IMG/VR virus record: IMGVR_UViG_3300047319_001698
Coordinates: 1-44,865 of that record
Strand: one strand, 5' to 3'
Source: a virus
Length of the DNA: 44,865 nucleotides
Shown piece by piece: positions 10-23,074 of the stretch (position 1 is its first letter; every line of letters starts with the position of its first letter). A program made the translations under genes and the position numbers. The notes under the pieces are model-generated. The model ran no database searches and was not told the origin of the DNA. It saw nothing but the letters and a program-made list of their open reading frames with translations.

Positions 10-414
10 GTGCTCTTCCCGCTCCTCGCCGGCATCGGCGCGCTGTGCATGTCGAATCCGGGGAAGCGTCGGCGTCGTCGCGCGAAGAGTCGTCGGCGCA
101 GGAACCCCGGCGGGATGAAGATCACGCCGCATGACCTGCGCGAGCTCAAGGACATGATCGAGCACTTGGACACGCCCGCGAGGCGCGCCAGGTACGCGAA
201 GGGGGACTTTCCTGCAGCAGATCGCGTCAAGGACCTGAACAAGCGCTATCGCTGGGACCTGCTCTGGGCCGCGGACCGGGCCAAGACTTCGCTCTGGACC
301 GCGCGTGTCTACGACTACGCCAATGACGCGCACATCGACACTGCCCTCCGCGCTCTCGTCGCGCCGCTGGCACAAGCCAACCCGCGCCGCCGTCGCAAAT
401 CCCGCCGAAAGTAA
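10..414 (+). CDS. Basic Asn-Pro/arginine-motif protein, function unknown
   Basis: No function is recognised for this 134-residue basic protein. It opens with a short hydrophobic stretch (residues 2-13) ending in Cys-Met-Ser-Asn-Pro. A block of arginines (about 19-31) follows and closes with Arg-Asn-Pro. The C-terminus is Asn-Pro followed only by R, K and S. The same head recurs in the gene at 3934-4569, and the same tail in those at 3175-3930 and 3934-4569, so these proteins share end modules around unrelated cores. The core (about 38-120) looks like a small helical domain. The GTG start is chosen because it lies 3 bases after a TAA at 4-6 that ends a preceding gene, and because it keeps the shared head. 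Met-36 is an alternative start, with AGGAAC upstream. A virion or DNA-binding role is inference. Confidence 0.7.
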   Translation: MLFPLLAGIGALCMSNPGKRRRRRAKSRRRRNPGGMKITPHDLRELKDMIEHLDTPARRARYAKGDFPAADRVKDLNKRYRWDLLWAADRAKTSLWTARVYDYANDAHIDTALRALVAPLAQANPRRRRKSRRK

Positions 415-417
415 CCC

Positions 418-2091
418 ATGGCCGAACTGGTCGCCCCCGTCGGCAACACGAGCGAGGCATCAGCGTCCCTTGGTGGCTCGGGTCGGCTGTACTCGCCGTT
501 CTCCCCCTACTACAATCCGGCGAAGGCCCGCAAGATCGGCCTCGCCGAGACCCAGCGCATCCTGCGCCGCAACCCGCCGCTGTCCGGCGCCGAGCGCGAC
601 CAGATCCTGGCCTACCAGAGCGACGCCAACAACAAGGTCGTCATCCCGACCCACGCGGCGCTCGCCGTCGCCGGCTGCATGGTCAACCGGGAGTGGAGCT
701 CGGCCGCCGACCTCTGCGACCAGCTCGCGGCCTTCGCCCGCAGCAAGTCCACCAAGCCGCAAGCCGGTGGCGTGACCTTCGTGCAGGTCTACGACAAGCT
801 CGCCCAGTACCTGCGCGCCATCGCCGCCGGCCAGGAGCCGCTGCGGACGCCGGCCAACAAGGGCGAGCTCAAGAAGTACGGCTCGAGACCCATCCCGCTC
901 TGGGATGACGTCGCGAAATGCGCGCTCGCCGAAGACGGCAACGTCAAGCTGCCCTTCGCGGCCTACAGCGAGTTCCCGGTCGTCACCTGCCCCGGCGCCG
1001 GCGGCGTCGCTGCGCGGTACGGCCAGCTCGCCGGCGCTGCGCTCGGTGCGGCGAACGTCAGCGAGGGCGTCGACATCCGCGGCTGCGCGTCGTTCTGCTA
1101 CTCGCTCAAGGCGCTGCGCAACCCGACGGTCTGCTACCGGCTCTACATCCAGACCCTGGGCATGTCGGTCGATCCGGAGCGGCACGTCAGCACGGTCGGC
1201 GAGCGGATGCTCAAGCTCAACGCCAAGAAGGGCGTCAAGATCCTCCGGCTGTTCGTCGACGGCGACTTCCGCAGCGCGGCCGCGATCGAGACCTGGATGG
1301 GGCTGGTGAAGCGCCTCGGCGCCGCCGGCATCACCGTCTACGGGTACAGCAAGTCGTGGCCGGAGTTCCACTCGCTGCAGGCCAAGTACGGCTCCGCGTG
1401 GTGGCCGACCAACTACGTGCTCAACCTGTCGAGCGGCAGCCGGTACTTCAAGGACCCGAACTGGTTGGTCCGGATGAAGGAGATCCCGGTCGCCCGCGGC
1501 GAGTTCATCGCGGTGGACCCGCTGGAGCGCCTGGTCTGGAAAGCGTTCACCAAGGCCCGCGGCATGGTCGCGTGGAACCGCTACACCGCGCGGATCAACG
1601 CCATCGCCAACGGCTCGGCGCGCGACAGCGCCAAGGCCCGGCTGATCGAGCGCCTGCGGACCAACCTCGGGGCCGCGATCATGCACGCCAACCCGGAGCT
1701 GGCGCAGGCCTACAACGACTACGTCCAGACCATCCACGACCTGGAGGCCCCGAACAGCACCCTGCTGAGCACGGTCCGCAGCGCGATCGGCCAGCCCGAG
1801 ATGATCCCGGGCCCGATCGTGCAGGCGTCGACCTTCGCTTTCCTGTCGGGCATCCGGCAGCCCGACGAGATGCCGTGCCCGATCAGCTGCGGCAGCTGCC
1901 CCGGCACCGCCATCCCGCAGCACGAGAAGGTGATCAAGGCCGCCCGGATGAACGACACGGCGCTGCTGCAGGACATGAACATCGTCGAGAAGACCAAGCA
2001 GCTCAACATCCAGCGCGCCAAGATCGGCGGCAACGTGCACCTGTGCGGCAACGCCAAGGCCAAGAAATCGATCATCATCGGGGTGCACTAG
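418..2091 (+). CDS. Gp88-like cysteine-containing phage protein
   Basis: This 557-residue protein resembles, by pattern, the phage 'gene product 88' family. A Cys-Pro-Gly segment (about 191-193) is followed by a Gly-Cys-Ala-Ser-Phe-Cys-Tyr motif (about 222-228). An arginine-rich helix, an Arg-Leu-Phe-Val-Asp-Gly-Asp-Phe strand (about 278) and a Tyr-Gly-Tyr-Ser-Lys-Ser-Trp strand (about 308) come next. In Gp88 relatives these elements are spaced the same way. A second cysteine cluster (Cys-Pro-Ile-Ser-Cys-Gly-Ser-Cys-Pro, about 488) lies near the C-terminus, so metal or Fe-S binding is plausible. The biochemical role of the family is not known to me. ATG follows the previous stop by 3 bases, and the gene sits inside the basic-protein cluster. 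The residue between the two cysteine groups is well-formed coding sequence with no frameshift. Confidence 0.6.
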   Translation: MAELVAPVGNTSEASASLGGSGRLYSPFSPYYNPAKARKIGLAETQRILRRNPPLSGAERDQILAYQSDANNKVVIPTHAALAVAGCMVNREWSSAADLCDQLAAFARSKSTKPQAGGVTFVQVYDKLAQYLRAIAAGQEPLRTPANKGELKKYGSRPIPLWDDVAKCALAEDGNVKLPFAAYSEFPVVTCPGAGGVAARYGQLAGAALGAANVSEGVDIRGCASFCYSLKALRNPTVCYRLYIQTLGMSVDPERHVSTVGERMLKLNAKKGVKILRLFVDGDFRSAAAIETWMGLVKRLGAAGITVYGYSKSWPEFHSLQAKYGSAWWPTNYVLNLSSGSRYFKDPNWLVRMKEIPVARGEFIAVDPLERLVWKAFTKARGMVAWNRYTARINAIANGSARDSAKARLIERLRTNLGAAIMHANPELAQAYNDYVQTIHDLEAPNSTLLSTVRSAIGQPEMIPGPIVQASTFAFLSGIRQPDEMPCPISCGSCPGTAIPQHEKVIKAARMNDTALLQDMNIVEKTKQLNIQRAKIGGNVHLCGNAKAKKSIIIGVH

Positions 2092-2172
2092 ATGGGCATC
2101 ATGGGCCGCATATCCATCCCCTTTTCAGGTCGCGCTGGCAATCGTCAGTCGACCCGCTACCGTGGAGCCGTC

Positions 2173-3153
2173 ATGAAACGCCGCTACCGTCGCAATGCCC
2201 GTCCGAACGAGAACGAGATCCCGACGGTGAAGATCGTGCGCCGCCGGAATCCCAAGCGGCGAACGGGGCTACCGGACCTGCAAGGTGTCTACGAGACCGT
2301 GTCGCGCTTGGAGAACTCCTGGCGCGGGCGGCAATACCGCATCGCAGGCTGGCAGGGCGACCGCATTTTGCTCGCCGCCATCGACGACCCGACCGCGGGA
2401 CCCGGTCCTGGCCGCAAGCGAGGCTGGTTGGTACCACAGACCGAGCTCTGGAAGGTCAACCCCCGCCGCGGTCGCAAAGGCAAGCGGGGTCGTCGCGCTT
2501 CCGGCTCCCCGGGCTCCGCCGCGGCGCGCCTCGCGTGGTGGCGCTGGCACCACAATCCGCTGGGCGGGGTGCGCGGTCGCCGGCGGAATCCCGGCGGTCT
2601 TGACCCGGGCGCTGCGCGCGAACTCGAGCTGTTCATCGTCAACGATGGCGACCTGTACCGGCAGAACATCCAGCCGGTGATCAAGAACCTCGCCAAGAAG
2701 ATGGCGAAGGGCACCTACAACCACGACCTCGCGGTGAAGCTCTGGAACTACACCGCCGGCTTCGGCGCGCAGAAGTACACCCGCGAGCACGGCGGCTCCG
2801 GCAACGGCTCCTACGGCCTCTTCAGCCCCGCGACCCGCAAGCGCGTCGCCGGCGCTCTCGCCAACTACTACCTGGAAGAAGTTCAGGAAGCCTCCAACAC
2901 CAAGTCGAATCCCCGTCACCGGAGAACCACCATGGCCCGTCGTCGCAAGCATTCCCGCAACACCCTCCCCCAGACCGTGACCTTCCGGAAGGGCGGCCGC
3001 CACACCGTGGTGTTCCGCCACCGCAAGGCGACCGCGTCGACCCGCGCCATGCGCCGGGCGGCCGGACGGCGCCTCGCCAAGATGTGGACCAGGGCCGAGC
3101 GCCTGGCCAATCTGAAGAAGGCCCGGGCCGCGCTGCGCCGCAAGCGCCGCTAA
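2173..3153 (+). CDS. Multi-domain basic protein with Asn-Pro/arginine linkers and a conserved phage domain
   Basis: A 326-residue, arginine-rich protein with three parts joined by Arg-Arg-Asn-Pro type linkers. An N-terminal small beta-like domain (about 25-95) is followed by a basic linker. A central domain (about 155-245) contains the pattern Phe-Ile-Val-Asn-Asp-Gly-Asp-Leu-Tyr-Arg. I recognise this domain as recurrent in metagenomic phage proteins but cannot assign a function. The third part is a very basic C-terminal 73 residues. ATG 2173 is preferred over in-frame ATGs at 2092 and 2101 because GTGGAG lies 6 bases upstream and the Met-Lys-Arg-Arg start suits the family. An in-frame ATG at 2932, preceded by CCGGAGAACC, could produce the last 73 residues as a separate protein. 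The role is probably structural or nucleic-acid binding, by inference from charge and context. Confidence 0.65.
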   Translation: MKRRYRRNARPNENEIPTVKIVRRRNPKRRTGLPDLQGVYETVSRLENSWRGRQYRIAGWQGDRILLAAIDDPTAGPGPGRKRGWLVPQTELWKVNPRRGRKGKRGRRASGSPGSAAARLAWWRWHHNPLGGVRGRRRNPGGLDPGAARELELFIVNDGDLYRQNIQPVIKNLAKKMAKGTYNHDLAVKLWNYTAGFGAQKYTREHGGSGNGSYGLFSPATRKRVAGALANYYLEEVQEASNTKSNPRHRRTTMARRRKHSRNTLPQTVTFRKGGRHTVVFRHRKATASTRAMRRAAGRRLAKMWTRAERLANLKKARAALRRKRR

Positions 3154-3174
3154 GCGGTAGCGCGAGAGCGCCCC

Positions 3175-3930
3175 GTGTTCCCGGTCGTGGCCGCTGTGGC
3201 TGCCGGCTATGTGCTCCTGCGTGGATCGCGCAGGAATCCGCGGCGGCGTCGGCGGAATCCGCTGCGCCGCGGCCACAGTCGCGCCACGATCTCGGCCAAC
3301 ATCCGCAAGCTGATCCGCGAGGAAGGCTACGACCCGAAGCAGGCGGTCGCCATCGCCTACAGCAAGGCGCGGAAGCGGCGGAATCCTCTCTCGGTCAAGC
3401 GCTCCGCCGAGTTCCAGGAGTTCGGGACCTACGACGTCACGCTCAACGACGGCAGCATCGTCCAGATCGCGCGGGACGCGGGCAACACCAACTGGTGGCA
3501 CGCCAACTGGTGGCCGACGCACCAGCACAACGACACCCTCCTCGGCTTCACCAAAGCTGAAGCGCTGGCGAAGGTCGAGGACTGGGTCGCGAGGCGGGTT
3601 GCGCGTTACCCGGGAGAAGCGGCGAAGAATGTGCGCCGCGCGAATCCGCGCCGCAATCCCGAGACCGAGATCTCCGGCGGCAAGCGCATCGGCGCCCGAC
3701 TCCAGCAGTGGCACGGCAGCGCCGGCGACCCGATCTACGTGGTCGGCTCGAACTGGTACGCGGGCCGCAAGGTCGGGGCGTCCTACGTGCGCGACGCGAT
3801 GCGCGGGCTGCAGGCCCAACTGAACGCCGGGGCCCCGGAAGCCGACGCCAAGGACCTGCGGTACCTGATCGCGTACCTCAATCACCGGTTGCTGCGGAAC
3901 AATCCCCGCCGCCGCAAGAGTCGGAGATAG
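3175..3930 (+). CDS. Asn-Pro/arginine-motif protein with KQAVAIAYSKAR-type module
   Basis: A 251-residue protein with a hydrophobic N-terminus (residues 1-15) and two successive Arg-Asn-Pro arginine blocks. Residues 37-65 carry the motif Lys-Gln-Ala-Val-Ala-Ile-Ala-Tyr-Ser-Lys-Ala-Arg. That resembles small phage proteins of the DUF6496 type (from memory). Two further small domains follow, separated by Arg-Ala-Asn-Pro-Arg-Arg-Asn-Pro, and the end is Asn-Pro plus an R/K/S tail identical in style to its neighbours. The chain therefore reads as beads separated by Asn-Pro/arginine linkers. The GTG start is preferred because it keeps the hydrophobic head. The next gene begins 3 bases after its stop. 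The function is unknown. Proteolytic cutting at the linkers would be one explanation of the design. Confidence 0.65.
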   Translation: MFPVVAAVAAGYVLLRGSRRNPRRRRRNPLRRGHSRATISANIRKLIREEGYDPKQAVAIAYSKARKRRNPLSVKRSAEFQEFGTYDVTLNDGSIVQIARDAGNTNWWHANWWPTHQHNDTLLGFTKAEALAKVEDWVARRVARYPGEAAKNVRRANPRRNPETEISGGKRIGARLQQWHGSAGDPIYVVGSNWYAGRKVGASYVRDAMRGLQAQLNAGAPEADAKDLRYLIAYLNHRLLRNNPRRRKSRR

Positions 3931-3933
3931 CTC

Positions 3934-4569
3934 ATGACCATGCTCGTCCCCATCCTCGCCGGCATCGGCGCGCTGTGCATGTCAAACCCGCGGCGTCGGC
4001 GGAAGGCGCGGCGGGCGAAGAAGCGCAATCCGTCGACCGCGTGGAACGTGTACCTGGGCGGCAAACTCATCGACACCGTCTACTACAGCACCGACGAAGA
4101 CCCCGACAGTGTGAAGCGCAGCCTCGTGAATCACGACGGCTACGACTCGCGCATCGTGGTGCGCAAAGCCCGCTTCCACGGGCACCGCAAGCAGAACCCG
4201 CCCTACCACGCCCACGTCGGGCCGGTGTACATGCGCAACGGCGGCTCGCGGCTCGCGCCGTGGGTCGTCCGCACGACCGAGGTCTGGGGCTTCAAGAACG
4301 GCCAGCAGGATACGCGCCGCGGCGAGAGCATCTACAGCGGCAAGGCGAGCGCGTCCGGGCTCGCGGCCTGGGTCCGGAGCTTCAACAAGTCGATGCAGCC
4401 CGGCGGCGTCAACGCCCACATGCGCGGGCTCGACGGCTCGATCCCCTGGGTCTACCACGCCGTGCTCCGCAACCAGAAGACCGGCAAGTCCTACACCTAC
4501 GACGCCCCGGCGTTCGAGGTGATGGACACCAACCCGCGCCGCCGGCGTCGCCGCAAATCCCGCCGCTAG
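3934..4569 (+). CDS. Basic Asn-Pro/arginine-motif protein, second copy of the shared head
   Basis: A 211-residue protein. Residues 4-18 (hydrophobic, then Cys-Met-Ser-Asn-Pro) match the N-terminus of the first gene of the window almost exactly, including at the DNA level (ctcgccggcatcggcgcgct at both sites). After the arginine block comes a small domain with Gly-Gly-Lys-Leu-Ile-Asp-Thr-Val-Tyr-Tyr and Arg-Ser-Leu-Val-Asn-His-Asp-Gly-Tyr-Asp. I recall this domain in other metagenomic phage proteins, without a function. A second domain (about 85-195) and an Asn-Pro plus R/K/S tail follow. ATG 3934 is used, and ATG 3940 is two codons later. The shared head suggests recombination or duplication of end modules within the cluster. 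Confidence 0.65.
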   Translation: MTMLVPILAGIGALCMSNPRRRRKARRAKKRNPSTAWNVYLGGKLIDTVYYSTDEDPDSVKRSLVNHDGYDSRIVVRKARFHGHRKQNPPYHAHVGPVYMRNGGSRLAPWVVRTTEVWGFKNGQQDTRRGESIYSGKASASGLAAWVRSFNKSMQPGGVNAHMRGLDGSIPWVYHAVLRNQKTGKSYTYDAPAFEVMDTNPRRRRRRKSRR

Positions 4570-4600
4570 CAAACCGCCAACCCTAGGTTACGCTCGCACC

Positions 4601-7219
4601 ATGCACCACCTCGCCTCCGGTGATATCGACGTCAGCTACGGCGCTCTGCCGGAAGGCCAGGACGCCAGCGTCGACGCGACCGTCAAGCTGATGTCGGAGA
4701 TGGCGAAGGGCAAATGGGGTGCCCGGTCGCCGAAGATCCGGGCGGCCGCGATCAACATCATCAACGGTGTCGACCCGATCTCGGGCGAGCGCATCGGCCG
4801 GTCGGTCGACAACAAGGATTACTTCGGGATGCTCGAAGCGATCCACAACTACGTGCGGGACAACATCCGGTACGTCAAGGATGTGATCGGCCAGGAGACC
4901 CTCAGCTACCCCGAAGAAATCCTGTTCAACTCGCGCGCCGAGGACTGCGACGGCATGACCACCCTGGAGATGGCCCTGCTCGGCTCGATCGGCCTGCGCA
5001 GCTACCCGGTGGTCATCGGCCTGGTCCCCAACCACTTCTCCCACGTCTACCTGCATGCCGAGATTCCCTCGGGAAAACACCGGTATGCGGACTCCACCAT
5101 CGCCGCCGACCCCATCATGCGCGAATGGCCTCTTGGAATGGCCGCCCCGGCTGATAGGGTCAAGGCCAAGCGAACCTACCCCGAACTCGCAGGAATCGGC
5201 ACCATGGCTATCGCCGGCTACGCTTCTGGCCCCGCATACCTGAGCCCGTCGGACGAGCTCGAGGCCGCCCAGGTCCCGCGCGCGATGAAGAGCCGGTACG
5301 TCGATACCGGTTCCCGCGGCGAGATCGTCAACGCCACGCGCCTGACCCAGTGGGGCGACGAGCTTGACGACATGTTCAACCGAGCGACCAATGTCGGCAT
5401 GCCGATGCAGGCCGCGCCGGCGTTCTCGCTCTACAGCCGCGGCCCGATCACCAACCGCAACGAGAAGGTCCTGACCAGCTACCTGGGACAGGCCAACCCG
5501 GTGCGGCGCATCAGCGCGCCGCTCGGCCAGAATTTCCAGCGCGGCCGCAACGTCGTCACCGTCCAGGACGGCAAGACCGCCAAGAGCGCGACCATCGCCC
5601 CGACCGTCGGCGAACTGCTCGGTCTGTCGGACTACCTGACCGACCTCGCCGGCCCGGCGGCCCGCGCGTCGAAGCAGCACCTCGTCGCCGGCCACAGCGA
5701 TCCGCTGCACCGGGCGGCCGCGGCCGCCGCGCTCACCAAGCAGCGCGCGACCAAGGCCTCGGGCCGGGTGGTGCGCATGGAGCGCAACGCCGGCTTCCTG
5801 TTCGGTCTCGGCGACGTCGAGTCGACCCGCAAGCTCGATCAGGCCAAGGCGATCGAAGCCCTGGCCCACGAGATCGCGGTCAAGGCCCAGAACATCGCCG
5901 AGATGTGCGCCGGCTCGAGCCCGGAGCGGCAGCAAGTCCTGCGCGACAACTTCGCGGCGCTCGACCACATGGGCCACTACCTGGGGGTCATCGACGCGGT
6001 CGCCCAGCTCGACCCGGCGGACCATCCGCAGGTCGACGCCCAGAACAAGGTCGACACCCTGACCGTGGTCAGCCAGTCCCCGACCTTCCGCCAGGCCTCG
6101 ACTCTCAAGGCCTCGCCGGCCATGGCCAAGCGCGCCGCCAAGCCGATCGTCGGGATCATGCCCGGCGGCGCGGTGGTGCGCGACCAGAACGGCGACGTGC
6201 TCTACGCCGACGACGGCAGCGATGACCTCGCCGGCGGTCTCGGCAGCTTCTTCAGCAAGATCAGCCACGCGGTCCAGACGATCGTCAAGGCCCCGGTGAA
6301 AGCCGTGCAGTCGGTCGGCAAGGCTGTCGAGAAGGGCGCCCAGTCGGTCGGCAAGGTCGCCGAGAAGGGCGTGAAGGCCGTCGGCTCGACGGTCGGCAAG
6401 GTCGTCGGCAACAAGAACCTGATGCTCGGCATCGCGACCGCCGGCGCGTCGGAGCTGCACCGGAAGCTCACCAAGCCGCTGTTCAGCAGTGCGATCAGTG
6501 CGATCCAGAGCGGTCTGCACAAGAGCGGCGGAGCGGCGGCGCCGGTCAGCCCGTCCGTCGTCACCCCGACCAGCACGACCCCGCCGGTCGTACCGGTCGA
6601 CCCGAACACCGGGCTGCCGGTCGACCCGAGCATCGTCCCGCAGCCGGGCGAGTCGACCGCCAGCCCCAGCACCACCGACCCCTGGTCGACCTACGGCCAG
6701 GACGACGGCTACATGGGCCCCAGCGTCGAAGCCGAGAGCAGCCAGAGCTTCGAGCAGATGTCGTCCGGCGGTGGTGATGGCCAGTCGTTCACCGACACCA
6801 TGACCGTCGACGACAGCAGCAACCCGTTTGCCGATGACCAGAGCTCGGGCGGCGGCGACGATGCCAGCGAAGGCGACGACGGCAGCGCGAGCGGTGGCAG
6901 CTACGATGGCGGCGGTGACGATGGCGGCGACGACATGACCGAAGGTTCGGACGCCAGCCCCGCGCCAGCCCCGCGCCGGAAGCGCAAGCACCGCCGCGCG
7001 CCCACCGAAGCGAGCCAGGATGCGTCGGATCTCGATGCGTCGGACGACTACGGCGACAGCGACGACTACGACGACAACGAAGACGGCGGCGAAGGTGATG
7101 GGTCCGACTCCGTCGAATCCCCGCCGGTCGAAGGCCTGCCGATGGTCGGCGGCATGAGCGTCGGCACCCTTGCGCTGCTCGGCCTCGGCGCCTATCTTCT
7201 CCTCAAGAACAGGAAGTAG
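4601..7219 (+). CDS. Transglutaminase-fold protein with acidic tail and C-terminal membrane anchor
   Basis: An 872-residue protein. Residues 70-170 match the transglutaminase-like cysteine protease fold. They contain Ile-His-Asn-Tyr-Val-Arg-Asp-Asn-Ile-Arg-Tyr, then Glu-Asp-Cys-Asp-Gly with candidate nucleophile Cys116, Phe-Ser-His with His148, and Tyr-Ala-Asp with Asp164. The middle (about 250-560) is uncharacterised. Residues about 560-610 are repeated Lys-Ala-Val/Ser-Val-Gly-Lys amphipathic units. A long Pro/Thr/Ser then Asp/Ser/Gly-rich stretch (about 640-840) leads to a single hydrophobic span (about 850-868) and a basic end. This layout suggests a membrane-anchored enzyme with an extended stalk. 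In a tailless virus it could process virion proteins or attack peptide bonds at entry, which is inference. ATG 4601 follows a 31-base gap after the previous stop. Confidence 0.7.
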   Translation: MHHLASGDIDVSYGALPEGQDASVDATVKLMSEMAKGKWGARSPKIRAAAINIINGVDPISGERIGRSVDNKDYFGMLEAIHNYVRDNIRYVKDVIGQETLSYPEEILFNSRAEDCDGMTTLEMALLGSIGLRSYPVVIGLVPNHFSHVYLHAEIPSGKHRYADSTIAADPIMREWPLGMAAPADRVKAKRTYPELAGIGTMAIAGYASGPAYLSPSDELEAAQVPRAMKSRYVDTGSRGEIVNATRLTQWGDELDDMFNRATNVGMPMQAAPAFSLYSRGPITNRNEKVLTSYLGQANPVRRISAPLGQNFQRGRNVVTVQDGKTAKSATIAPTVGELLGLSDYLTDLAGPAARASKQHLVAGHSDPLHRAAAAAALTKQRATKASGRVVRMERNAGFLFGLGDVESTRKLDQAKAIEALAHEIAVKAQNIAEMCAGSSPERQQVLRDNFAALDHMGHYLGVIDAVAQLDPADHPQVDAQNKVDTLTVVSQSPTFRQASTLKASPAMAKRAAKPIVGIMPGGAVVRDQNGDVLYADDGSDDLAGGLGSFFSKISHAVQTIVKAPVKAVQSVGKAVEKGAQSVGKVAEKGVKAVGSTVGKVVGNKNLMLGIATAGASELHRKLTKPLFSSAISAIQSGLHKSGGAAAPVSPSVVTPTSTTPPVVPVDPNTGLPVDPSIVPQPGESTASPSTTDPWSTYGQDDGYMGPSVEAESSQSFEQMSSGGGDGQSFTDTMTVDDSSNPFADDQSSGGGDDASEGDDGSASGGSYDGGGDDGGDDMTEGSDASPAPAPRRKRKHRRAPTEASQDASDLDASDDYGDSDDYDDNEDGGEGDGSDSVESPPVEGLPMVGGMSVGTLALLGLGAYLLLKNRK

Positions 7220-7223
7220 ACCC

Positions 7224-7928
7224 ATGCACCACAAGCCCCACGTCCACAACCGCTACCGCAACGAGGAGATCAACCTCCAGCCGTACGGCAACACGATCTC
7301 GATCGAGACCGAGTCGGACAACCCGTTCGAAGACGACCAGGACGTCGAGGTGTTCACCCAGGCGTCCGGCGGCATGGCCGGCCCGGATCCGCGGCAGCGG
7401 TCGCGCGGCCTGCTGGCCAAGCGCAGCCAGACCACCCACCACCAGGGCGGCAAGGTCCGGACCTTCAAGGCCCACATGGACGCCGCCCACCCCGGGTTCA
7501 TGCCCGGCATGGGCGAGCTGGCCAAGGCCCCGGTGCGCCGCGCGCGGCCGACCGTCAGCCGCAGCTTCATGCCCGGCATGAGCGGGCTCGGCGCGGATTC
7601 CTCGACCGGCTTCGACACCGGGGAGGGCGTCGTGCCGGATCCGAGCGCGCCCGCCGCGTCGGGCACCCCGTCGTGGCTCACCGCCCTGACCACCGGCCTC
7701 AACGCCGGCGCCCAGACCACGTCCAGCGTGATGGCCAGCCGGACCGCCAAGGCCCAGGCGGACGCCGCCAAGTCGACGGCCGCGGCCGAGCAGGCTCGCG
7801 CCGACCAGATGCGCCAGGGCGCCATGGTCACCGGCGGCAAGGCCGCCAGCTACGCGGTGCCGCTGATCGGCCTCGCCGTGGCGGCCGGCGCGGTCATGCT
7901 GTTCATGAAGATGGGCAAGCGGAAGTAG
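7224..7928 (+). CDS. Small protein with one C-terminal membrane span and two FMPGM repeats
   Basis: A 234-residue protein of unknown function. Two copies of Phe-Met-Pro-Gly-Met followed by Gly/Ser-x-Leu lie around residues 92 and 114. An alanine/glutamine-rich helical stretch (about 155-200) is followed by a strong hydrophobic span (about 208-229) and a Lys-rich end, consistent with an anchor whose basic end stays inside. ATG 7224 sits 4 bases after the stop of the transglutaminase-fold gene, so the two are probably co-transcribed. It is the first of a run of single-span proteins up to 9791. A virion membrane protein is the favoured reading. Confidence 0.6.
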   Translation: MHHKPHVHNRYRNEEINLQPYGNTISIETESDNPFEDDQDVEVFTQASGGMAGPDPRQRSRGLLAKRSQTTHHQGGKVRTFKAHMDAAHPGFMPGMGELAKAPVRRARPTVSRSFMPGMSGLGADSSTGFDTGEGVVPDPSAPAASGTPSWLTALTTGLNAGAQTTSSVMASRTAKAQADAAKSTAAAEQARADQMRQGAMVTGGKAASYAVPLIGLAVAAGAVMLFMKMGKRK

Positions 7929-7930
7929 CC

Positions 7931-8422
7931 ATGGCCGGACACCAGCGCCACCCGATGGACGACGCCTTCTCCGCCCAGAACGGGGCGGTGCACCGGGCCG
8001 GCTCGGCCAAAGCGCGCCGGCCGGATCTGGTGCCGATCGCGGTGATGCCGCGCGGCGACGTCCAGGACCTGACCCCGGTGATCGCCCGGGCGACGCCGGG
8101 CCCGCGGAACCGGAACCTGACCCCGCGGCTCGGCCGCTCGATCTCGCACGGCCCGGCGGCATCGCTAAGCCTGCCGATCTACCAGAACCCCAAGGATCTG
8201 GCCGGGCTGGGGTTCTGGGGGTTCAACCCGAAGATCAAGAAGGGTCACCAGACCCCGCCGATCGTCGCGCCGGCCCGCGGCGGGTTCAAGTCCGCCCCCG
8301 GCTACCGGTCGCCGCCGATCCTCGCTGGCGACCACCTCGCCGCACTGGACGTGCCCGCCCCGGCCAAGACCATCCTGGTCGGCGCCGCCCTCGTCGCCGC
8401 CTTCTACTTCCTGGCCCACTAA
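7931..8422 (+). CDS. Single-span membrane protein, paralogue of the next gene
   Basis: A 163-residue protein. The soluble part contains Leu-Thr-Pro-Val-Ile-x-Arg (about 48-54) and a Pro-Lys-Asp-Leu-Ala-Gly-Leu-Gly motif (about 91-98). Both recur in the same order in the gene at 8432-8824 (Leu-Thr-Pro-Ala-Ile-Gly-Arg and Pro-Gly-Asp-Leu-Ala-Gly-Leu-Gly). One hydrophobic span closes the protein (about 146-162). The ATG lies 2 bases after the previous stop. The function is unknown. The tandem duplication suggests two related membrane components of the same particle. Confidence 0.6.
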   Translation: MAGHQRHPMDDAFSAQNGAVHRAGSAKARRPDLVPIAVMPRGDVQDLTPVIARATPGPRNRNLTPRLGRSISHGPAASLSLPIYQNPKDLAGLGFWGFNPKIKKGHQTPPIVAPARGGFKSAPGYRSPPILAGDHLAALDVPAPAKTILVGAALVAAFYFLAH

Positions 8423-8431
8423 GGACTCCCC

Positions 8432-8824
8432 ATGCACCGCGACATGAGCTTCGACCTCGACGGCATCTTCTCCACCCGCAACGCCGGCGAGCTCACCTCG
8501 GTGAAGCAGGTCCGCACGCGCGTCACCCGCGCGCCGGGGCTCGAGCGCGCCCACCGCGCCGACGGCGGCGACGTCACGGTCCTGACCCCGGCGATCGGCC
8601 GGAAGATGCACGCCAGCGCCCCGCGGCCCATCCTGCGCTTCCCGGCCAAGCCGCTCGACGCGTCGGCCGGCCGCAGCCTGACCACCCCGTTCTACCACCG
8701 GCCGGGAGACCTGGCCGGTCTGGGCGACGTCACCCTGCCGGTCATCGGCACGGTGTCGACGATCAGCCTCGCGCTCGCGGCGGTGCTGGGCTACGTCGGC
8801 TACAAGATGCTCAAGAAGGCCTAG
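8432..8824 (+). CDS. Single-span membrane protein, paralogue of the preceding gene
   Basis: A 130-residue protein sharing the Leu-Thr-Pro and Asp-Leu-Ala-Gly-Leu-Gly motifs of the preceding gene but otherwise diverged. A hydrophobic span (about 105-125) ends in Lys-Lys-Ala. The start is an ATG with the purine-rich stretch TAAGGACT about 9 bases upstream, and the next gene begins 2 bases after the stop. Gene order, spacing and charge pattern match a set of small virion membrane proteins. No enzymatic motif is visible. Confidence 0.6.
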   Translation: MHRDMSFDLDGIFSTRNAGELTSVKQVRTRVTRAPGLERAHRADGGDVTVLTPAIGRKMHASAPRPILRFPAKPLDASAGRSLTTPFYHRPGDLAGLGDVTLPVIGTVSTISLALAAVLGYVGYKMLKKA

Positions 8825-8826
8825 TC

Positions 8827-9312
8827 GTGGAATCGGCGCTCGGCGTCGGGCAGCTGACGTCGCTCGAACTCCTCAACCCGGCCACGGGCAAGACCACGGC
8901 GCAGCGCGTGCACGGACGCTGGCTTGGCTGGTCACCGAAGAAGCGGCAGTTCCTGATCTGCAAGATCCTGCGGCGCAACCCGGGCAAGGTGAGCAGCGGC
9001 ATCGAGCGCGCTCACCGCCGGTTCCACCAAGCCCCGTCCAGCGGATCCTTCGTGGTCGATGCCCCGGCGCCGCAGGGCAAGCTGCAGCAGGTCGGGCTGG
9101 TCAAGGCCCTGACCTATCAGGTGCCGGACAGCGTGAAGAGCCCGGGCAAGAACCGGGCCCACTGGCACCACGCGTTCGGTGACACCGGCCACAAGGGCGG
9201 GGTCTACACCCCCAAGGTCATGCCGGCGCTCTGCCGCGACGCCAAGGGCAACCTGTTCATCAAGCGCCGCAAAGGCAACATCTTCACCGTCGACACCTGG
9301 CTGAGGGGCTGA
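8827..9312 (+). CDS. Basic protein of unknown function with Arg-Arg-Asn-Pro motif
   Basis: A 161-residue basic protein starting at GTG, 2 bases after the previous stop. An Ile-Leu-Arg-Arg-Asn-Pro-Gly-Lys segment (about 49-56) echoes the Arg-Asn-Pro linkers of the upstream cluster. Histidines are frequent in the middle (His-Trp-His-His, about 113-117). No membrane span is visible, unlike its neighbours. I do not recognise the family. Its position between membrane-protein genes suggests a role in the same particle. Confidence 0.55.
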   Translation: MESALGVGQLTSLELLNPATGKTTAQRVHGRWLGWSPKKRQFLICKILRRNPGKVSSGIERAHRRFHQAPSSGSFVVDAPAPQGKLQQVGLVKALTYQVPDSVKSPGKNRAHWHHAFGDTGHKGGVYTPKVMPALCRDAKGNLFIKRRKGNIFTVDTWLRG

Positions 9313-9314
9313 GC

Positions 9315-9791
9315 ATGCGTATCACCGCGGTCCTCGGAGTCCTGCTCGCCGTCGGCGGCGCCGGCTACTGGTTCTGGTCGAAGCGCAAGCCGGTCGTGCC
9401 GGTGCGCCGCGCGCCGCTGCCGACCTACGCTCCGATGGTGACCTACCAGCTGCCGCCGGGCCAGACCATCCCGGGACCGATGGTGCCGGCCCAGTCGGCG
9501 AACCCGTTCCTGCCGGGCTACGTCGCGCCGGCGCCCACCGTGAATCCGTTCCTGGTGCCGACCGCGGCGCCGGCGCAGGCCGATGTCTTCTTCGCGTGGC
9601 GGCCGGGCACCCCGCCGGTGCGGCAGGCCCAGATCCAGCAGCAGTTCAACCTGACCCCGGTGCCGGCTGAGTTCGGCAACCTGCTGTCCTTCCGCGCGCC
9701 GGCGCCGCAGGGGACCAGCGCACTGTACGCGGCGCTGCAGGCGGTGCCGGAGCTGCAGCAGATGGGCGTGATGGAAGCGGCGCCGGTCTAG
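9315..9791 (+). CDS. N-terminally anchored proline-rich protein
   Basis: A 158-residue protein. Residues 4-21 form a hydrophobic span followed by Lys-Arg-Lys, which could be a membrane anchor or an uncleaved signal. The next 70 residues are rich in proline and alanine, with two Asn-Pro-Phe-Leu repeats (about 56 and 76). The C-terminal part (about 95-158) is more ordered-looking. The ATG lies 2 bases after the previous stop, making it the last gene of the plus-strand run. The function is unknown. The design resembles a membrane-anchored stalk or spike base, which is inference. Confidence 0.55.
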   Translation: MRITAVLGVLLAVGGAGYWFWSKRKPVVPVRRAPLPTYAPMVTYQLPPGQTIPGPMVPAQSANPFLPGYVAPAPTVNPFLVPTAAPAQADVFFAWRPGTPPVRQAQIQQQFNLTPVPAEFGNLLSFRAPAPQGTSALYAALQAVPELQQMGVMEAAPV

Positions 9792-9814
9792 CGATCGACC
9801 CGGCGCCGCGGAGC

Positions 9815-10048
9815 CTACGGAACCTCGAGCGTCTGGTGCTCGAAGCAGAACCACGCCAGCTTGTGGCAGCCGCACATGATGTGGCCATCCTTCGCGAACT
9901 GGTTGGTGAACGTCGCCTTGTGGGTCATGCAGACCCAGCGGCCTTCCTTCCCCGTCGCGCACTTCGGTGCCACCGTGAACGTCTCGCCCTCCACGGTGAC
10001 CGAATCGCCGACCGCGGCGCGAGTGATTCTCTCTTTCTTTGCAGGCAT
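9815..10048 (-). CDS. Small Cys/His-rich protein, possible zinc binder
   Basis: A 77-residue protein transcribed toward the structural module. Four cysteines and several histidines are arranged as Cys-Met-Thr-His and Cys-Gly-Cys-His, with a further Cys-Phe-Glu-His. This would suit a small zinc-binding fold. The start is well supported by AAGGAGGG 8 bases upstream. A possible extended -10 (TGATACAAT on this strand, 10070-10078) lies just above. The gene ends 23 bases from the convergent gene at 9315-9791. The function is unknown. Confidence 0.6.
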   Translation of the reverse strand: MPAKKERITRAAVGDSVTVEGETFTVAPKCATGKEGRWVCMTHKATFTNQFAKDGHIMCGCHKLAWFCFEHQTLEVP

Positions 10049-10069
10049 GGTTGTGCCCTCCTTGCGCGT

Positions 10070-10078
10070 ATTGTATCA
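10070..10078 (-). promoter_or_regulatory. Extended -10 for the small Cys/His protein
   Basis: On the minus strand this reads TGATACAAT, an extended -10 (TG, one base, TACAAT). No good -35 is visible, which is acceptable for extended -10 promoters. It lies about 22 bases upstream of the ATG at 10048. Confidence 0.35.
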
Positions 10079-10241
10079 GGTCGGGTTTTGCGATTTTTCA
10101 AAAACGGCCTGTTTTTACCGTCAAATCGTTCGCAACCCCTGAGCCCCACTGGCGAGAACATTTCGCTTGACCGGGTTTTCACACTTTAGCGCAACACCGC
10201 CGTTCGTACGACAAGCGCGTGTCGCACGTCCCGAAATAGTT

Positions 10242-10270
10242 TTGACTCTGAGACTCCCGATGCCTAGAGT
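10242..10270 (+). promoter_or_regulatory. Sigma70-type promoter for the membrane/capsid operon
   Basis: TTGACT, a 17-base spacer, then TAGAGT. It is the best plus-strand promoter in the region and would give a leader of about 96 bases before the ATG at 10374. It lacks the TCCATAG heptamers of the early-type promoters, so this operon is probably regulated differently. Confidence 0.5.
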
Positions 10271-10373
10271 CGGCGGGGTCAGCATGTAGCAGCGCGATAG
10301 CCTGAAGGCAATCGCCCGGCCAGCAGCCTAGTGAGTCGATCAGGACGCGCCCGCCTAGGGCTGAAGGTTCCCG

Positions 10374-11159
10374 ATGCCGCTCATGCTGCTGTCCAACCCT
10401 GGCCTCCATCTCGCTCTCCTCGGCAACCCGCGTTCACGCCGCACGTCGCGCCGTGGCGGTCGCCACCACCGTCACCCACGAAGGAACCCCACCATGGGCA
10501 TCGCCAAGCAGTACATCAGCGCCGTCAAGCGCGCCCCCTCCGAAGTCCTCAGCGTGGTCAAGCACCACAAGCTGAAGACCCTCCTGTTCACCGCGGGCGG
10601 CGCCGTCGGCACCTACGCGCTGGGTGGCATCCTCACCGCGCAGTTCGTGGCCCCGATGCTGGCTCGCTTCGGCGGCGGCGCGATCCTGACCAGCCCGATC
10701 GGCAAGCGGGTGGTCGGCGGCCTGACCCCGTTCACCATCGGCTTCATCGCCTCGAAGTTCGTCAAGGGCAACATCGGCAAGGCCCTGGCCGTCGGCGGCG
10801 CCGCGGCCTCGATCGTCGAGCTCGTCTCGCCCGGCATGCTCGCCTCGCTGGTCTACCGCACCCCGATCGTCGGGCCCGCCGCGGTCGCCGCCGCTCCCGC
10901 CGCCGCCGTCCGCGGCCCGGTGAACGGTCTCGAAGGCTACGTCGACGCCAAGGCCTACCAGGGCACCGGCGGCTACGTGGACGCCAAGGCCTACCAGGGC
11001 ACCGGCGACATGGACGAGGACTCGGTCGACGGCTACGTCGACGCCAAGGCCTACCAGGGCACCGGCGACATGGAAGACGACCTGGCCAGCGACGACCTCG
11101 CCGGCGTGGACGGCTACCTGACCGACGCCAGCAAGTACATGGAGACCTACCTCAACTAG
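10374..11159 (+). CDS. Membrane protein with Asn-Pro/arginine head and three acidic repeats
   Basis: A 261-residue protein. The head (1-40) has Ser-Asn-Pro, Gly-Asn-Pro and Arg-Arg-Asn-Pro with arginines, as in the basic cluster at the left end. Residues about 60-150 contain two to three hydrophobic spans rich in Gly/Ala. The tail contains Gly-Tyr-Val-Asp-Ala-Lys-Ala-Tyr-Gln-Gly-Thr-Gly three times in an acidic context. Met-41 (ATG 10494) is preceded by GAAGGAACC, a better ribosome-binding site than the one at 10374, so a shorter form lacking the basic head may also be made. I recall similar proteins next to capsid genes in metagenomic tailless phages, without a function. A virion membrane component is likely. 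Confidence 0.6.
   Translation: MPLMLLSNPGLHLALLGNPRSRRTSRRGGRHHRHPRRNPTMGIAKQYISAVKRAPSEVLSVVKHHKLKTLLFTAGGAVGTYALGGILTAQFVAPMLARFGGGAILTSPIGKRVVGGLTPFTIGFIASKFVKGNIGKALAVGGAAASIVELVSPGMLASLVYRTPIVGPAAVAAAPAAAVRGPVNGLEGYVDAKAYQGTGGYVDAKAYQGTGDMDEDSVDGYVDAKAYQGTGDMEDDLASDDLAGVDGYLTDASKYMETYLN
10935..11066 (+). repeat. Three 36-base coding repeats
   Basis: Near-identical units at 10935-10970, 10971-11006 and 11031-11066 each encode 12 residues with the core Ala-Lys-Ala-Tyr-Gln-Gly-Thr-Gly. Only a third-position change (gtc/gtg) separates the first two. The nucleotide identity suggests recent expansion and likely length variation between relatives. Confidence 0.85.
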
Positions 11160-11354: not shown

Positions 11355-11924
11355 ATGCCCGTTTTCCGCACCGTCAAGGACGCCCGTTCGGGCTCCATCC
11401 GCCTCGAGGCGATCCACCAGCCGCTGTACGACAGCGTCGCCCTCACCAACCAGACCAGCGTCACCCTGTTCTCGACCGGCTCGGCCGGCCGCAGCGCGCT
11501 GCTCACCAACCTGCAGACCGCCGGGCAGCTCAGCTGGCCGAAGCGGTTCAGCATCCGGGCCCTGCGCCAGGTGCTGGGCTACGCCGCGATCGCGGACTAC
11601 GCTGATGCGGCCGCGTTCTTCCAGCGCGGCAGCTACAAGGTGCAGGTCGGCGAGAAGGTCTACCTGACCATTCCCGCCTTCATCCTGACCGCCGGCACGG
11701 GCCTCGAAGCCCAGACCGTGGTCCCGGCCGTGGCGGTCACCGCCTCGACCGTGTACGCCAACGCCGGTCGCCCGGAGCAGCGCAACATCTACTCGCTGCT
11801 GCATTCTATCTACCTCCCGCCGGTGCAGAACTTCTACGTCCAGCTGGACATCGCCACCGGCCTCTCGGTGACCCTGGTGCTCCACCTGTTCCTCGAAGGG
11901 GAATTGCTCCGCGAGATCCAGTAA
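11355..11924 (+). CDS. Candidate jelly-roll major capsid protein
   Basis: A 189-residue, beta-rich protein without membrane spans or enzymatic motifs. Its pattern includes Gln-Leu-Ser-Trp-Pro-Lys-Arg-Phe (about 57-64), Leu-Thr-Ile-Pro-Ala-Phe-Ile-Leu (about 103), Leu-Pro-Pro-Val-Gln-Asn-Phe (about 155) and a C-terminal Leu-Glu-Gly-Glu-Leu-Leu-Arg-Glu. It fits sequences I recall as capsid proteins of metagenomic tailless phages. The size suits a single jelly roll, as in Thermus phage P23-77-like viruses. The start has a strong GGGGAGGAG site, and a 195-base leader and a strong terminator isolate the gene, as expected for a highly expressed product. The assignment is inference, since no close homologue can be checked here. 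Confidence 0.45.
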   Translation: MPVFRTVKDARSGSIRLEAIHQPLYDSVALTNQTSVTLFSTGSAGRSALLTNLQTAGQLSWPKRFSIRALRQVLGYAAIADYADAAAFFQRGSYKVQVGEKVYLTIPAFILTAGTGLEAQTVVPAVAVTASTVYANAGRPEQRNIYSLLHSIYLPPVQNFYVQLDIATGLSVTLVLHLFLEGELLREIQ

Positions 11925-12020: not shown

Positions 12021-12353
12021 TTAGTGGGCTTTGCTCTTCGGCCGCGTTCGGACGCCTGCGGCGGCGAGCACGTTGTACACCGTCTTCTTGTCGACGCCGT
12101 ACTGGCGCCCGATCACCGTCGCGCCGAGGCCCTCGGTAACGTAGGCCTTGATGATCGCGTCTCGGGTGTCATCGGGCGTCGCCGGCTTGCCGCCGCGGTT
12201 GTTGGCCTGCGCGCCGCACTTGCGCAGCACCAGCAGGACAGCATCGCCGCCCACGCCGTAGGTCTCGGCGATCTTATCGGCGCCCTCGCCCGCCGCGTAG
12301 CGCGCGAGGATCCGTTGGTGTTGTTCGGGAGGGATAACTGCTTTGCCGGCCAT
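12021..12353 (-). CDS. Tandem helix-turn-helix DNA-binding protein
   Basis: A 110-residue protein with two helix-turn-helix units of the transposase/resolvase-like kind. One is at about 14-44 (Ile-Ala-Glu-Thr-Tyr-Gly-Val) and the other at about 62-97 (Ile-Gly-Arg-Gln-Tyr-Gly-Val-Asp-Lys-Lys-Thr-Val). No catalytic domain is present. The N-terminus of the divergent homing endonuclease carries the same kind of unit, so the two may share DNA-binding ancestry. The gene is divergent from that endonuclease across an 89-base gap containing overlapping promoters and a 10-base direct repeat. A regulator, possibly of itself and the endonuclease, is a reasonable inference. Confidence 0.65.
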   Translation of the reverse strand: MAGKAVIPPEQHQRILARYAAGEGADKIAETYGVGGDAVLLVLRKCGAQANNRGGKPATPDDTRDAIIKAYVTEGLGATVIGRQYGVDKKTVYNVLAAAGVRTRPKSKAH

Positions 12354-12377
12354 GGTGGTCCTTTCGGTGGAAGGGGT

Positions 12378-12427
12378 GATATTCCGATCCTAGACTTGAC
12401 ATTACTAACAGGCAAGCGATATTCCGA
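12378..12427 (+). promoter_or_regulatory. Plus-strand promoter flanked by a 10-base direct repeat
   Basis: The promoter is TTGACA (12396-12401), 17 bases, then ATATTC (12419-12424). GATATTCCGA occurs at 12378-12387 and again at 12418-12427, exactly 40 bases apart. The first copy abuts the minus-strand -10 and the second covers the plus-strand -10, so a protein bound to both would control both genes. The helix-turn-helix protein next door is the obvious candidate. Confidence 0.5.
12387..12415 (-). promoter_or_regulatory. Minus-strand promoter of the helix-turn-helix gene
   Basis: On the minus strand: TTGCCT, 17 bases, TAGGAT. It overlaps the divergent plus-strand promoter, so only one may be occupied at a time. 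Confidence 0.5.
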
Positions 12428-12442
12428 ACAAGGAGAACCGTT

Positions 12443-13297
12443 ATGCCTCATGGAGTTGGACATCGCCTGACCCTCGCCGAGCGCGAAGCGGTCATCGACG
12501 GCTACATGGAAGGCATCTCGTCGGAGAAGCTGGCTCTTGATTTCGGTGTCAGCGGAGTGGCGATCCGAAAAACGCTACAGCGCGCCGGTGTCGAGCGGCG
12601 GGACGCGCGCGAGTGCCACCGCACCTGCGAGCTCGACGAAACCGTCTTCGATACACTGACGCCGGAGAGCGCCTACTGGGTAGGCATGCTCATGTCCGAT
12701 GGCTACCTAACCGAAGAGGGTCTGTCTGTAAACATGCGCCTGCAGATCGGCGACAAGGCCCACGTTGAAAAACTCCAGGCCTTCCTGAAGTCAACGCACG
12801 CGGTGCGGCTGAACAAGGCGGCCACGTCAGTCGGTCTGAGCGTGAAAAGCCCAAAGCTGTACGCAGCTCTTCAGAGCTACGGAGTCCGGCCGAATAAATC
12901 ATTCACCGCCGAAGTAGCCCCTGTCTTGGCGCATAACCGCGACTTCTGGCGCGGTATCGCCGACGGGGACGGCTCGCTCAAAAACTACGGCGGATGCCCG
13001 CGACTGCATCTGATCGGGTCGCAGGGTACCATCCGGCAATTCGACGAGTTCTGCGCCCCCTATCTCGATGGCTACCCCTTGAAAATACAGATATGCAAAC
13101 ACTCACCGATCTGGAATGCGACGATGTACGGCAACGCCGCCATGACCATGATGCGCGTGCTGTACAAAAGCGCGGTCGTCTATCTCGACCGGAAGAAAAC
13201 ATTCGCCGACGAAATGGCTGCGCTCTACAAAGGCCGCACCTTCCGCGTCTTCAAGAAATTTGCCCGCCTCTCGACATCCTCCCCAGCCCCCCTATAG
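12443..13297 (+). CDS. LAGLIDADG homing endonuclease with N-terminal helix-turn-helix
   Basis: A 284-residue protein. Residues about 15-50 form a helix-turn-helix. The two LAGLIDADG helices are Tyr-Trp-Val-Gly-Met-Leu-Met-Ser-Asp-Gly-Tyr (about 78-88) and Phe-Trp-Arg-Gly-Ile-Ala-Asp-Gly-Asp-Gly (about 172-181). Each ends with an acidic residue that would bind the catalytic metal ion. Two motifs in one chain fit a monomeric enzyme that cuts a long asymmetric site. No intron or intein boundaries are visible around it, so it appears free-standing between the capsid operon and the minus-strand region. Its codon use looks less GC-biased than the neighbours', consistent with transfer. The start has AAGGAG 9 bases upstream. 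Confidence 0.85.
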   Translation: MPHGVGHRLTLAEREAVIDGYMEGISSEKLALDFGVSGVAIRKTLQRAGVERRDARECHRTCELDETVFDTLTPESAYWVGMLMSDGYLTEEGLSVNMRLQIGDKAHVEKLQAFLKSTHAVRLNKAATSVGLSVKSPKLYAALQSYGVRPNKSFTAEVAPVLAHNRDFWRGIADGDGSLKNYGGCPRLHLIGSQGTIRQFDEFCAPYLDGYPLKIQICKHSPIWNATMYGNAAMTMMRVLYKSAVVYLDRKKTFADEMAALYKGRTFRVFKKFARLSTSSPAPL

Positions 13298-22435: not shown

Positions 22436-23074
22436 CTACAGGTCCCGGTGCAGAGCCGCAAGCAACTCGTCCGTACCGCGGCAGTGAACGAAGTGCTTTT
22501 TCCGATGAGCGGTGATGACGGGCAGCTTGTACTCGACGAGATACACAGGGGTGCCGACACTATGCGCAAGGTGTGACATGCCGCTGTCGCAACCGACGAA
22601 GCACTGAGAGTGGGCGAGGTGCGACATGCAGGTCCTGAGGGGCAGGTTCTTGCTCAGGCGCACGGCCTGATATCCACGGGCGTAGATGGCGCGCAGGACC
22701 CTGTCCTCGTCCTCCTCGGAGGGGTTTTTGTCGGCAGCCGATGAAATGCCGTCGAACTGATAACAGACGACGTCTACCTTTTGCGGAAACCACCGATCCT
22801 TGGTCGGCCAATAGGGCGACGTCCAGACGTCTTCGCCCTCGGGCTCGTGGGTGCCGCGCGCGTCGACGATGGTGACCTTGGACTCCTTGGGCTTGTCGAG
22901 CAGCTCGAGGATCTCCTCCATGCGGACTTTGAAATCCTGCCCGTGCTGGTAGCGGCTGAGGTGGATCTCCTCCTTGAGCATCCACGACCGGGTGATCAGG
23001 TAGTTGATCGTGGCCCAGTGGTCGCCGAGGTTGAAGCGCCAAGGCGCCCAGACGGAAGTCGCGGGGGTCAGCAT
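22436..23074 (-). CDS. Glycosyltransferase family 9-like protein
   Basis: A 212-residue protein. The strong signature is Val-Gly-Cys-Asp-Ser-Gly-Met-Ser-His-Leu-Ala-His-Ser-Val-Gly-Thr-Pro-Val (about 159-176), typical of the nucleotide-sugar-binding half of GT9/heptosyltransferase-like enzymes. The N-terminal half is only about 120 residues, shorter than in full GT-B enzymes (about 320-350 in total), so this may be a reduced form. ATG 23074 has TGGAGAG just upstream and overlaps the GT2 gene by 7 bases. Together they suggest a second glycan-modifying cassette. Confidence 0.7.
   Translation of the reverse strand: MLTPATSVWAPWRFNLGDHWATINYLITRSWMLKEEIHLSRYQHGQDFKVRMEEILELLDKPKESKVTIVDARGTHEPEGEDVWTSPYWPTKDRWFPQKVDVVCYQFDGISSAADKNPSEEDEDRVLRAIYARGYQAVRLSKNLPLRTCMSHLAHSQCFVGCDSGMSHLAHSVGTPVYLVEYKLPVITAHRKKHFVHCRGTDELLAALHRDL

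Follow-up and report, generated by a model that had tools for sequence, protein, structure and literature searches.

Phage T4 packages and injects small internal proteins (IPI–IPIII) that carry a capsid targeting sequence of 10 residues, and one of them, IPI, blocks a restriction system of the host (PMC9026906, PMC9391042). In ascoviruses, the virion protein P64 is large and basic, and has repeated modules and stretches rich in arginine (PMC6163548). Salisaeta icosahedral phage 1 (SSIP-1) is described as enclosing an internal membrane and having a capsid of two single-barrel proteins (PMC4958249, PMC6356626). Here we describe a family of basic proteins in the IMG/VR virus record IMGVR_UViG_3300047319_001698 (hereafter the window: the whole stretch analyzed, a linear record of 44,865 bases with 62–71% GC and no tRNA genes) that combine a hydrophobic N-terminal head, arginine-rich linkers bracketed by Asn-Pro (NP) and a basic C-terminal tail. 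These tags are common to genes with whole-protein cores, the cores turn over beneath lasting tags and the genes have a structural setting. We favor, at evenly balanced confidence, the reading that the tags mark virion cargo, are specific to one clade of large, probably tail-less phages with a membrane, and attach small phage proteins to the virion membrane or genome. We found no described cargo tag for this type of virus, and a literature search returned no paper combining NPRRRR with phage.

Two proteins of the window discussed below, the candidate capsid protein and that encoded at 4601–7219, retrieved related contigs of 15–110 kb as well as two contigs in metagenome-assembled genomes (MAGs) of Planctomycetota, one such MAG being G007. 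These contigs, which are linear and may be incomplete, expose a clade of probably tail-less phages extending to 110 kb. Capsid proteins of the related viruses are 53–93% identical. Relatives G002, G003, G005 and G007 are near-identical across the tag region and were treated as one. The G006 capsid protein is 96% identical to that of the window, and its contig stops short of the tag block. All tagged and structural-type genes of the window located below, named by their start positions where numbered, are on the plus strand.

Genes 10 and 3934 begin with the heads MLFPLLAGIGALCMSNP and MLVPILAGIGALCMSNP, whose DNA agrees at 60 of 67 bases, and a tblastn search of their own contig with gene 3934 recovers gene 10 (E = 1e-8). 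This bears out a preliminary description made from the window's letters, which had noted the hydrophobic head in both genes, conserved even in DNA. From the alignment, gene 3934 probably starts at 3940 rather than 3934. In gene 10, the head (MLFPLLAGIGALCMS, 10–54) is followed by an NP-bracketed basic linker (NPGKRRRRRAKSRRRRNPGG, 55–114); in gene 3934, head and linker (MLVPILAGIGALCMSNPRRRRKARRAKKRNP) occupy 3940–4032. Gene 3175 opens with MFPVVAAVAAGYVLLRGSRR and an NP-basic linker (3175–3255), a head type shared by a 249-residue protein of relative G001, and the head of gene 10374 (MPLMLLSNPGLHLALLGNPRSRR, running to RRNP; 10374–10490) is conserved wherever the gene was found in relatives. 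At the other end, genes 10, 3175 and 3934 close, as first described, with NP followed by R, K and S: NPRRRRKSRRK (379–414), NPRRRKSRR (3901–3930) and NPRRRRRRKSRR (4531–4569), coordinates including the stop codon. The tail DNA of genes 10 and 3934 aligns at 27 of 27 bases, save for six inserted bases.

G001 and G004 each have a single gene with a head of this kind, and G009 has three different ones that share one head, MIPLLAGLAGLA followed by CNP. The head and linker of a gene encoding 397 residues in G001 are identical to those of gene 3934 at 74 of 85 DNA bases, and the cores of the two proteins are unrelated. We considered whether the Cys-Met-Ser of the head could be a lipobox, and rejected this reading because the Cys position shifts in G004 (GCALMSNP) and G009 (LCNP). 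A search for the exact head pattern across IMG/VR found the nearest relative as its sole other carrier.

The NP linkers exceed what composition predicts. Compared with composition-preserving shuffles of each protein, NP counts are 6 versus 0.84 in gene 3175 (p = 0.0005), 4 versus 0.64 in gene 3934 (p = 0.0015), 5 versus 1.06 in gene 2092/2173 (p = 0.002), 3 versus 0.34 in gene 10374 (p = 0.0025) and 3 versus 0.31 in gene 10 (p = 0.003), which upholds the claim that genes 2173, 3175 and 10374 carry Arg-Asn-Pro linkers. The second of these, 2173–3153, is an internal ATG of the open reading frame (ORF) 2092–3153 and encodes an R/K-rich multi-module protein with RRRNP linkers, whose modules 'RPNENEIPTV', 'WRWHHNP' and 'ELELFIVNDG..' recur in relatives. 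Gene 8827, listed earlier as a partial member, has a lone RRNP (p = 0.03) that is missing at that place in its 59% identical G005 orthologue, and we dropped it from the family. We also placed NPs at random, in 300 trials, in 27 clade proteins with 49 basic tracts. An NP stands at the 5′ edge of 28 of the 49 tracts (random mean 5.1 ± 2.0, maximum 11) and at the 3′ edge of 19 (random mean 6.0, maximum 13), tails counting by definition as lacking a 3′ NP. NP at both tract edges thus suggests a grammar: hydrophobic head, NP, basic tract, NP, core, NP, basic tract, further cores where present, NP, basic tail, stop.

Could such a grammar arise from recombination alone? GC-rich arginine/NP linkers might spread by duplication and repeat recombination, fusing genes in frame with no shared function. 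A 54-base linker is repeated at 96% within one G001 gene, the heads are 83–87% identical in DNA and cores are shuffled between genes among the clade proteins. Yet recombination would leave unexplained why G009 carries a protein-level head with different residues (MIPLLAGLAGLA..CNP), why tails always lie at the C-terminal end and why NP flanks both edges of the tracts, and we regard this explanation as highly improbable, the least probable of those considered. Nor are the tags a general viral feature. The preliminary description had made its reading depend on recurrence in other viral genomes beyond arginine-rich low complexity; such recurrence is seen in the related genomes. Across IMG/VR, RRNPRRR occurs in at least 120 stretches, and 47 ORFs carried the motif among the matches listed, almost all of them in frames that were unrelated or implausible and with no second tagged gene. 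Because the exact head is found only in the nearest relative and RRNPRRR by itself does not recur as a viral tag among those matches, we regard the tag as clade-specific rather than general.

The cores between these tags are more than the unrelated small domains first described: they are whole orphan phage proteins. By tblastn on annotated phages and direct alignment, five cores match small proteins of unrelated tailed phages from start to end. The matching proteins are mostly free-standing, with 47–100 residues, and all ten core boundaries lie no more than 7 residues from an NP (rough chance 1e-5). Core A of gene 10 (115–366, phrog_9817) matches Mycobacterium prophi79-1 gp53, Gordonia ObLaDi gp142 and a protein of Achromobacter 2-1 over their full length and keeps the start Met, the linker ending in RRRRNPGG being followed by MKITPHD in alignment with the free proteins' starts MKMTS, MKMSP and MKIKP. 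It is tag-free in 79 of 79 parsed IMG/VR loci, where it usually makes up the whole ORF. The T7-like phage Stalingrad has a core A homologue as its gene 2, a position which we take to be where early genes lie in the T7-like group. In an AlphaFold2 model of gene 10, core A forms five helices at a model confidence (pLDDT) of about 95, and the tags, for which the model's alignment held no homologues, are unordered at 57–62, the linker being of low confidence and lacking secondary structure.

Core B of gene 3934 (4033–4176, phrog_6353) is a free-standing protein of 47–48 residues in Pseudomonas phages (Ab17 ORF129 and Boevelstad CDS0021). Core C of gene 3175 (3256–3381, phrog_2423), which matches Caulobacter RBC57 and cyanophage KBS-S-2A, is free-standing in hundreds of viral contigs (the core occurs in at least 483 in IMG/VR) and, among 60 parsed loci, lies internally between NP linkers solely in this clade. 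TALE-repeat matches to core C in a PDB sequence search were tiny and repeated, with none passing alone, and we attribute them to chance. The remaining two matched cores are in G001: that of the 397-residue protein corresponds to the full length of a Bradyrhizobium BDU-MI-1 reading frame and to the N-terminal part of Stenotrophomonas Suzuki gp7, and that of the 249-residue protein matches Klebsiella KP2025. The families phrog_2423, phrog_6353 and phrog_9817 thus supply cores C, B and A, but elsewhere they are untagged and mostly stand-alone small proteins. Two further cores of gene 3175, split by NPRRNP (3382–3900), and gene 2092 found nothing by tblastn against phage records.

Heads, linkers and tails are retained across relatives, and most cores are replaced. 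The head-bearing genes of the window and G001 share tags and not cores, despite capsid proteins that are 93% identical, and splitting the proteins at NP yields 9 modules shared between proteins versus dozens of single cores. The body of gene 10374 (10491–11159) is glycine/alanine-rich, hydrophobic and conserved, with GYVDAKAYQGTG repeats; these are in tandem at 10930–11121, the end of the protein, and differ in copy number among relatives. Core D of gene 3934 (4195–4530) recurs in G004 and G005 as the C-terminal module of proteins that are otherwise built differently; the G005 protein has 374 residues, another head and no tail.

The tagged block directly precedes a gene (4601–7219) encoding a transglutaminase-like protein with an acidic low-complexity region and a C-terminal transmembrane segment, which is homologous to SSIP-1 gp34 (36.7% identity over 109 residues, E = 5e-16). 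SSIP-1 gp34 is annotated as a structural protein, and this adjacency sustains the placing of the tagged block in a structural gene cluster. The Cys-His-Asp residues are conserved in both proteins, and the 4601–7219 product is possibly a virion cross-linking enzyme or protease. Asn-Pro might then be a maturation signal at which a virion protease, perhaps this product, cuts and frees the cores; the regular NP at both linker edges and the conserved Cys-His-Asp could suggest this. This account is improbable in our judgment: we found no evidence of cutting at Asn-Pro and identified no Asn-Pro-specific protease here, and in the membrane-protein tails NP stands at the extreme C-terminal end, where a cut would just remove the tail.

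Immediately downstream, a protein with a C-terminal transmembrane segment (7224–7928) ends in KMGKRK, and its G001 orthologue ends in KKKRK. G002–G005 encode two tandem orthologues, with ends TNPRKRRR and TNPRRRRHRR, and a C-terminal-transmembrane protein of G008 has the similar end ATNPRKHR. Tail-bearing ORFs of the two longest contigs, which measure 109 kb and 97 kb, are confined to the structural block. The candidate jelly-roll capsid protein (11355–11924), which served as a query for relatives, is modeled as all-beta at modest confidence (pLDDT 66). In the PDB it matches Sulfolobus polyhedral virus 1 (SPV1) best (E = 1.1e-5), and in BFVD it matches best I1ZBH9, a viral protein of 211 residues (TM score 0.54), equal in length to SSIP-1 gp46, with which its identity is unconfirmed; a profile comparison of the capsid alignment with SSIP-1 gp45 and gp46 was not significant. 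Genes scanned in the window and G001, a subset of those present, gave no convincing match to terminase, portal, HK97 capsid or tail genes. A Walker A search of selected genes of G001, G005 and the window found only a phage helicase and a few chance-like matches, and no packaging ATPase was recognized in G001 or G005. Given the capsid model, the gp34 homologue and the lack of convincing tailed-phage families among scanned genes, a tail-less virion with a membrane is likely.

Several further observations concern the window and other genomes. A GP88-family protein (418–2091; PF17338, E = 3.5e-12), untagged, lies between tagged genes within the structural block and is conserved in G002/G005. G001 encodes three paralogous candidate jelly-roll capsid proteins (35552, 37300 and 50005), one of them opposite in strand to the structural operon. 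G119, a 9.5-Mb single-contig genome that shares its phylum with the Planctomycetota MAG G007, has capsid-like and transglutaminase-like genes about 4–5 kb apart on one strand (contig 1, L356/L357, ~3.847–3.860 Mb), with small C-terminal-transmembrane proteins between the two and no NP tags; this locus is probably a provirus of an SSIP-1-like lineage. Beside the window's capsid gene is a possible HNH/homing-type endonuclease insert (12021–13297; phrog HNH and DNA-binding matches), with a larger related ORF in G006. Glycosyltransferase genes of family 9 and family 2 are adjacent at 22436–23793. A conserved protein of ~1630 residues occurs in G001 (100147–105045), G006 (2095–6987) and G005 (5613–10490), with 53–80% identity between relatives.

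How might tagged proteins reach the virion, where we infer that they reside? By the positive-inside rule, the arginine side of a membrane segment faces the cytoplasm, and the head would insert in the host cytoplasmic membrane in this orientation. Head-anchored proteins would gather in the membrane patch destined for the virion vesicle. Vesicles of the PRD1 type are pinched off from a phage-modified patch of host membrane (PMC6356626), and proteins anchored there would therefore end up in the virion. Binding partners of the basic linkers and tail would be DNA, acidic lipid or the inside of the capsid; in this topology cytoplasmic arginine tracts would point toward the capsid, except where the protein crosses together with the DNA, so the capsid's inner face is a partner no less likely than DNA. 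Asn-Pro would most likely form a turn or helix stop between basic tract and folded core, and the repeated linker DNA could double as a seam for in-frame splicing of new cores. Finally, the cores, orphan phage proteins that include some from other phages' early regions, would travel in the particle to the next host, like T4 internal proteins.

A head and charge pattern suited to a single anchor with its N terminus out and C terminus in would fit host-membrane proteins that never enter the virion, anchored by the head with arginine inside and keeping viral DNA, for example, where assembly or replication takes place. We consider this unlikely, since the tags are limited to the structural block, occur also on structural-type C-terminal-transmembrane proteins and belong to same-strand genes that almost touch the gp34-like gene. 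A stronger competitor, to which we assign a minority but appreciable probability, is that the tagged proteins are virion architecture: basic membrane-anchored bridges or genome-condensing core proteins. Function would then lie in the arginine tracts, which would neutralize DNA charge or bond capsid to membrane, and the cores would serve as tolerated spacers or dimerization modules. The tagged proteins are very basic, with arginine reaching 30%, tails lie close behind transmembrane segments in structural-type proteins, the 10374 body and core D are conserved, and ascovirus P64 offers a precedent for large, basic, multi-domain virion proteins that condense DNA (PMC6163548). However, the cores are known in their own right as phage proteins. 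At least one is confidently folded and kept from its start Met, and the cores change much faster than the tags; spacers need not be captured genes.

Several points weigh against the cargo reading. The heads are short for a membrane helix, with about 15–17 hydrophobic residues, and the gene 10 model, in a region without homologues in its alignment, shows no helix at the head. Relatives keep core D and the 10374 body instead of replacing them, which better fits a structural part. Relative G011 and the G119 provirus both lack the full tag set, and SSIP-1 itself lacks such NP/arginine tags. Moreover, the fold of core A has no match in the PDB, and we infer rather than observe a host-directed role for the cores.

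With the cargo reading in mind, comparison with the described systems gives likenesses and differences. As in T4, a short common terminal sequence is found on unlike small proteins. But the virus here is of another type, its tags comprise a membrane-like head, NP-bracketed arginine linkers and a C-terminal tail, and a protein may hold several cores; packaging and injection, known for T4, are predictions here, and no gp21-type prohead protease was found among the subset of genes scanned. We therefore take the T4 parallel as a likeness of logic, not as homology or membership. P64 is likewise a large basic protein with repeated modules and arginine-rich stretches, but the cores here are captured phage proteins and the basic tracts are bracketed by Asn-Pro; no Pfam match to the two-cysteine adaptor module of the P64 family was found in the tagged proteins scanned. 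SSIP-1 shares the homologous transglutaminase-like structural gene and many small proteins with a C-terminal transmembrane end, but it is 43.8 kb and untagged, relatives here reach 109 kb, and beyond gp34 there is no other clear protein match.

More generally, we suggest, tentatively and with considerable doubt, a capture-and-deliver strategy of large tail-less phages, possibly phages of Planctomycetota. Whole orphan proteins of foreign origin would be spliced between head, linker and tail cassettes that can be used repeatedly, creating multi-cargo virion-membrane proteins that are delivered at entry. If the cargo reading is correct, the tags would reveal from sequence which proteins enter the host with a membrane-containing phage, in a group for which functional data are very scarce. 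Dozens of small phage proteins would become candidate factors for takeover of the host in the first minutes of infection or for anti-defense, and the NP/arginine seam would be a route for splicing whole genes into a delivery cassette.

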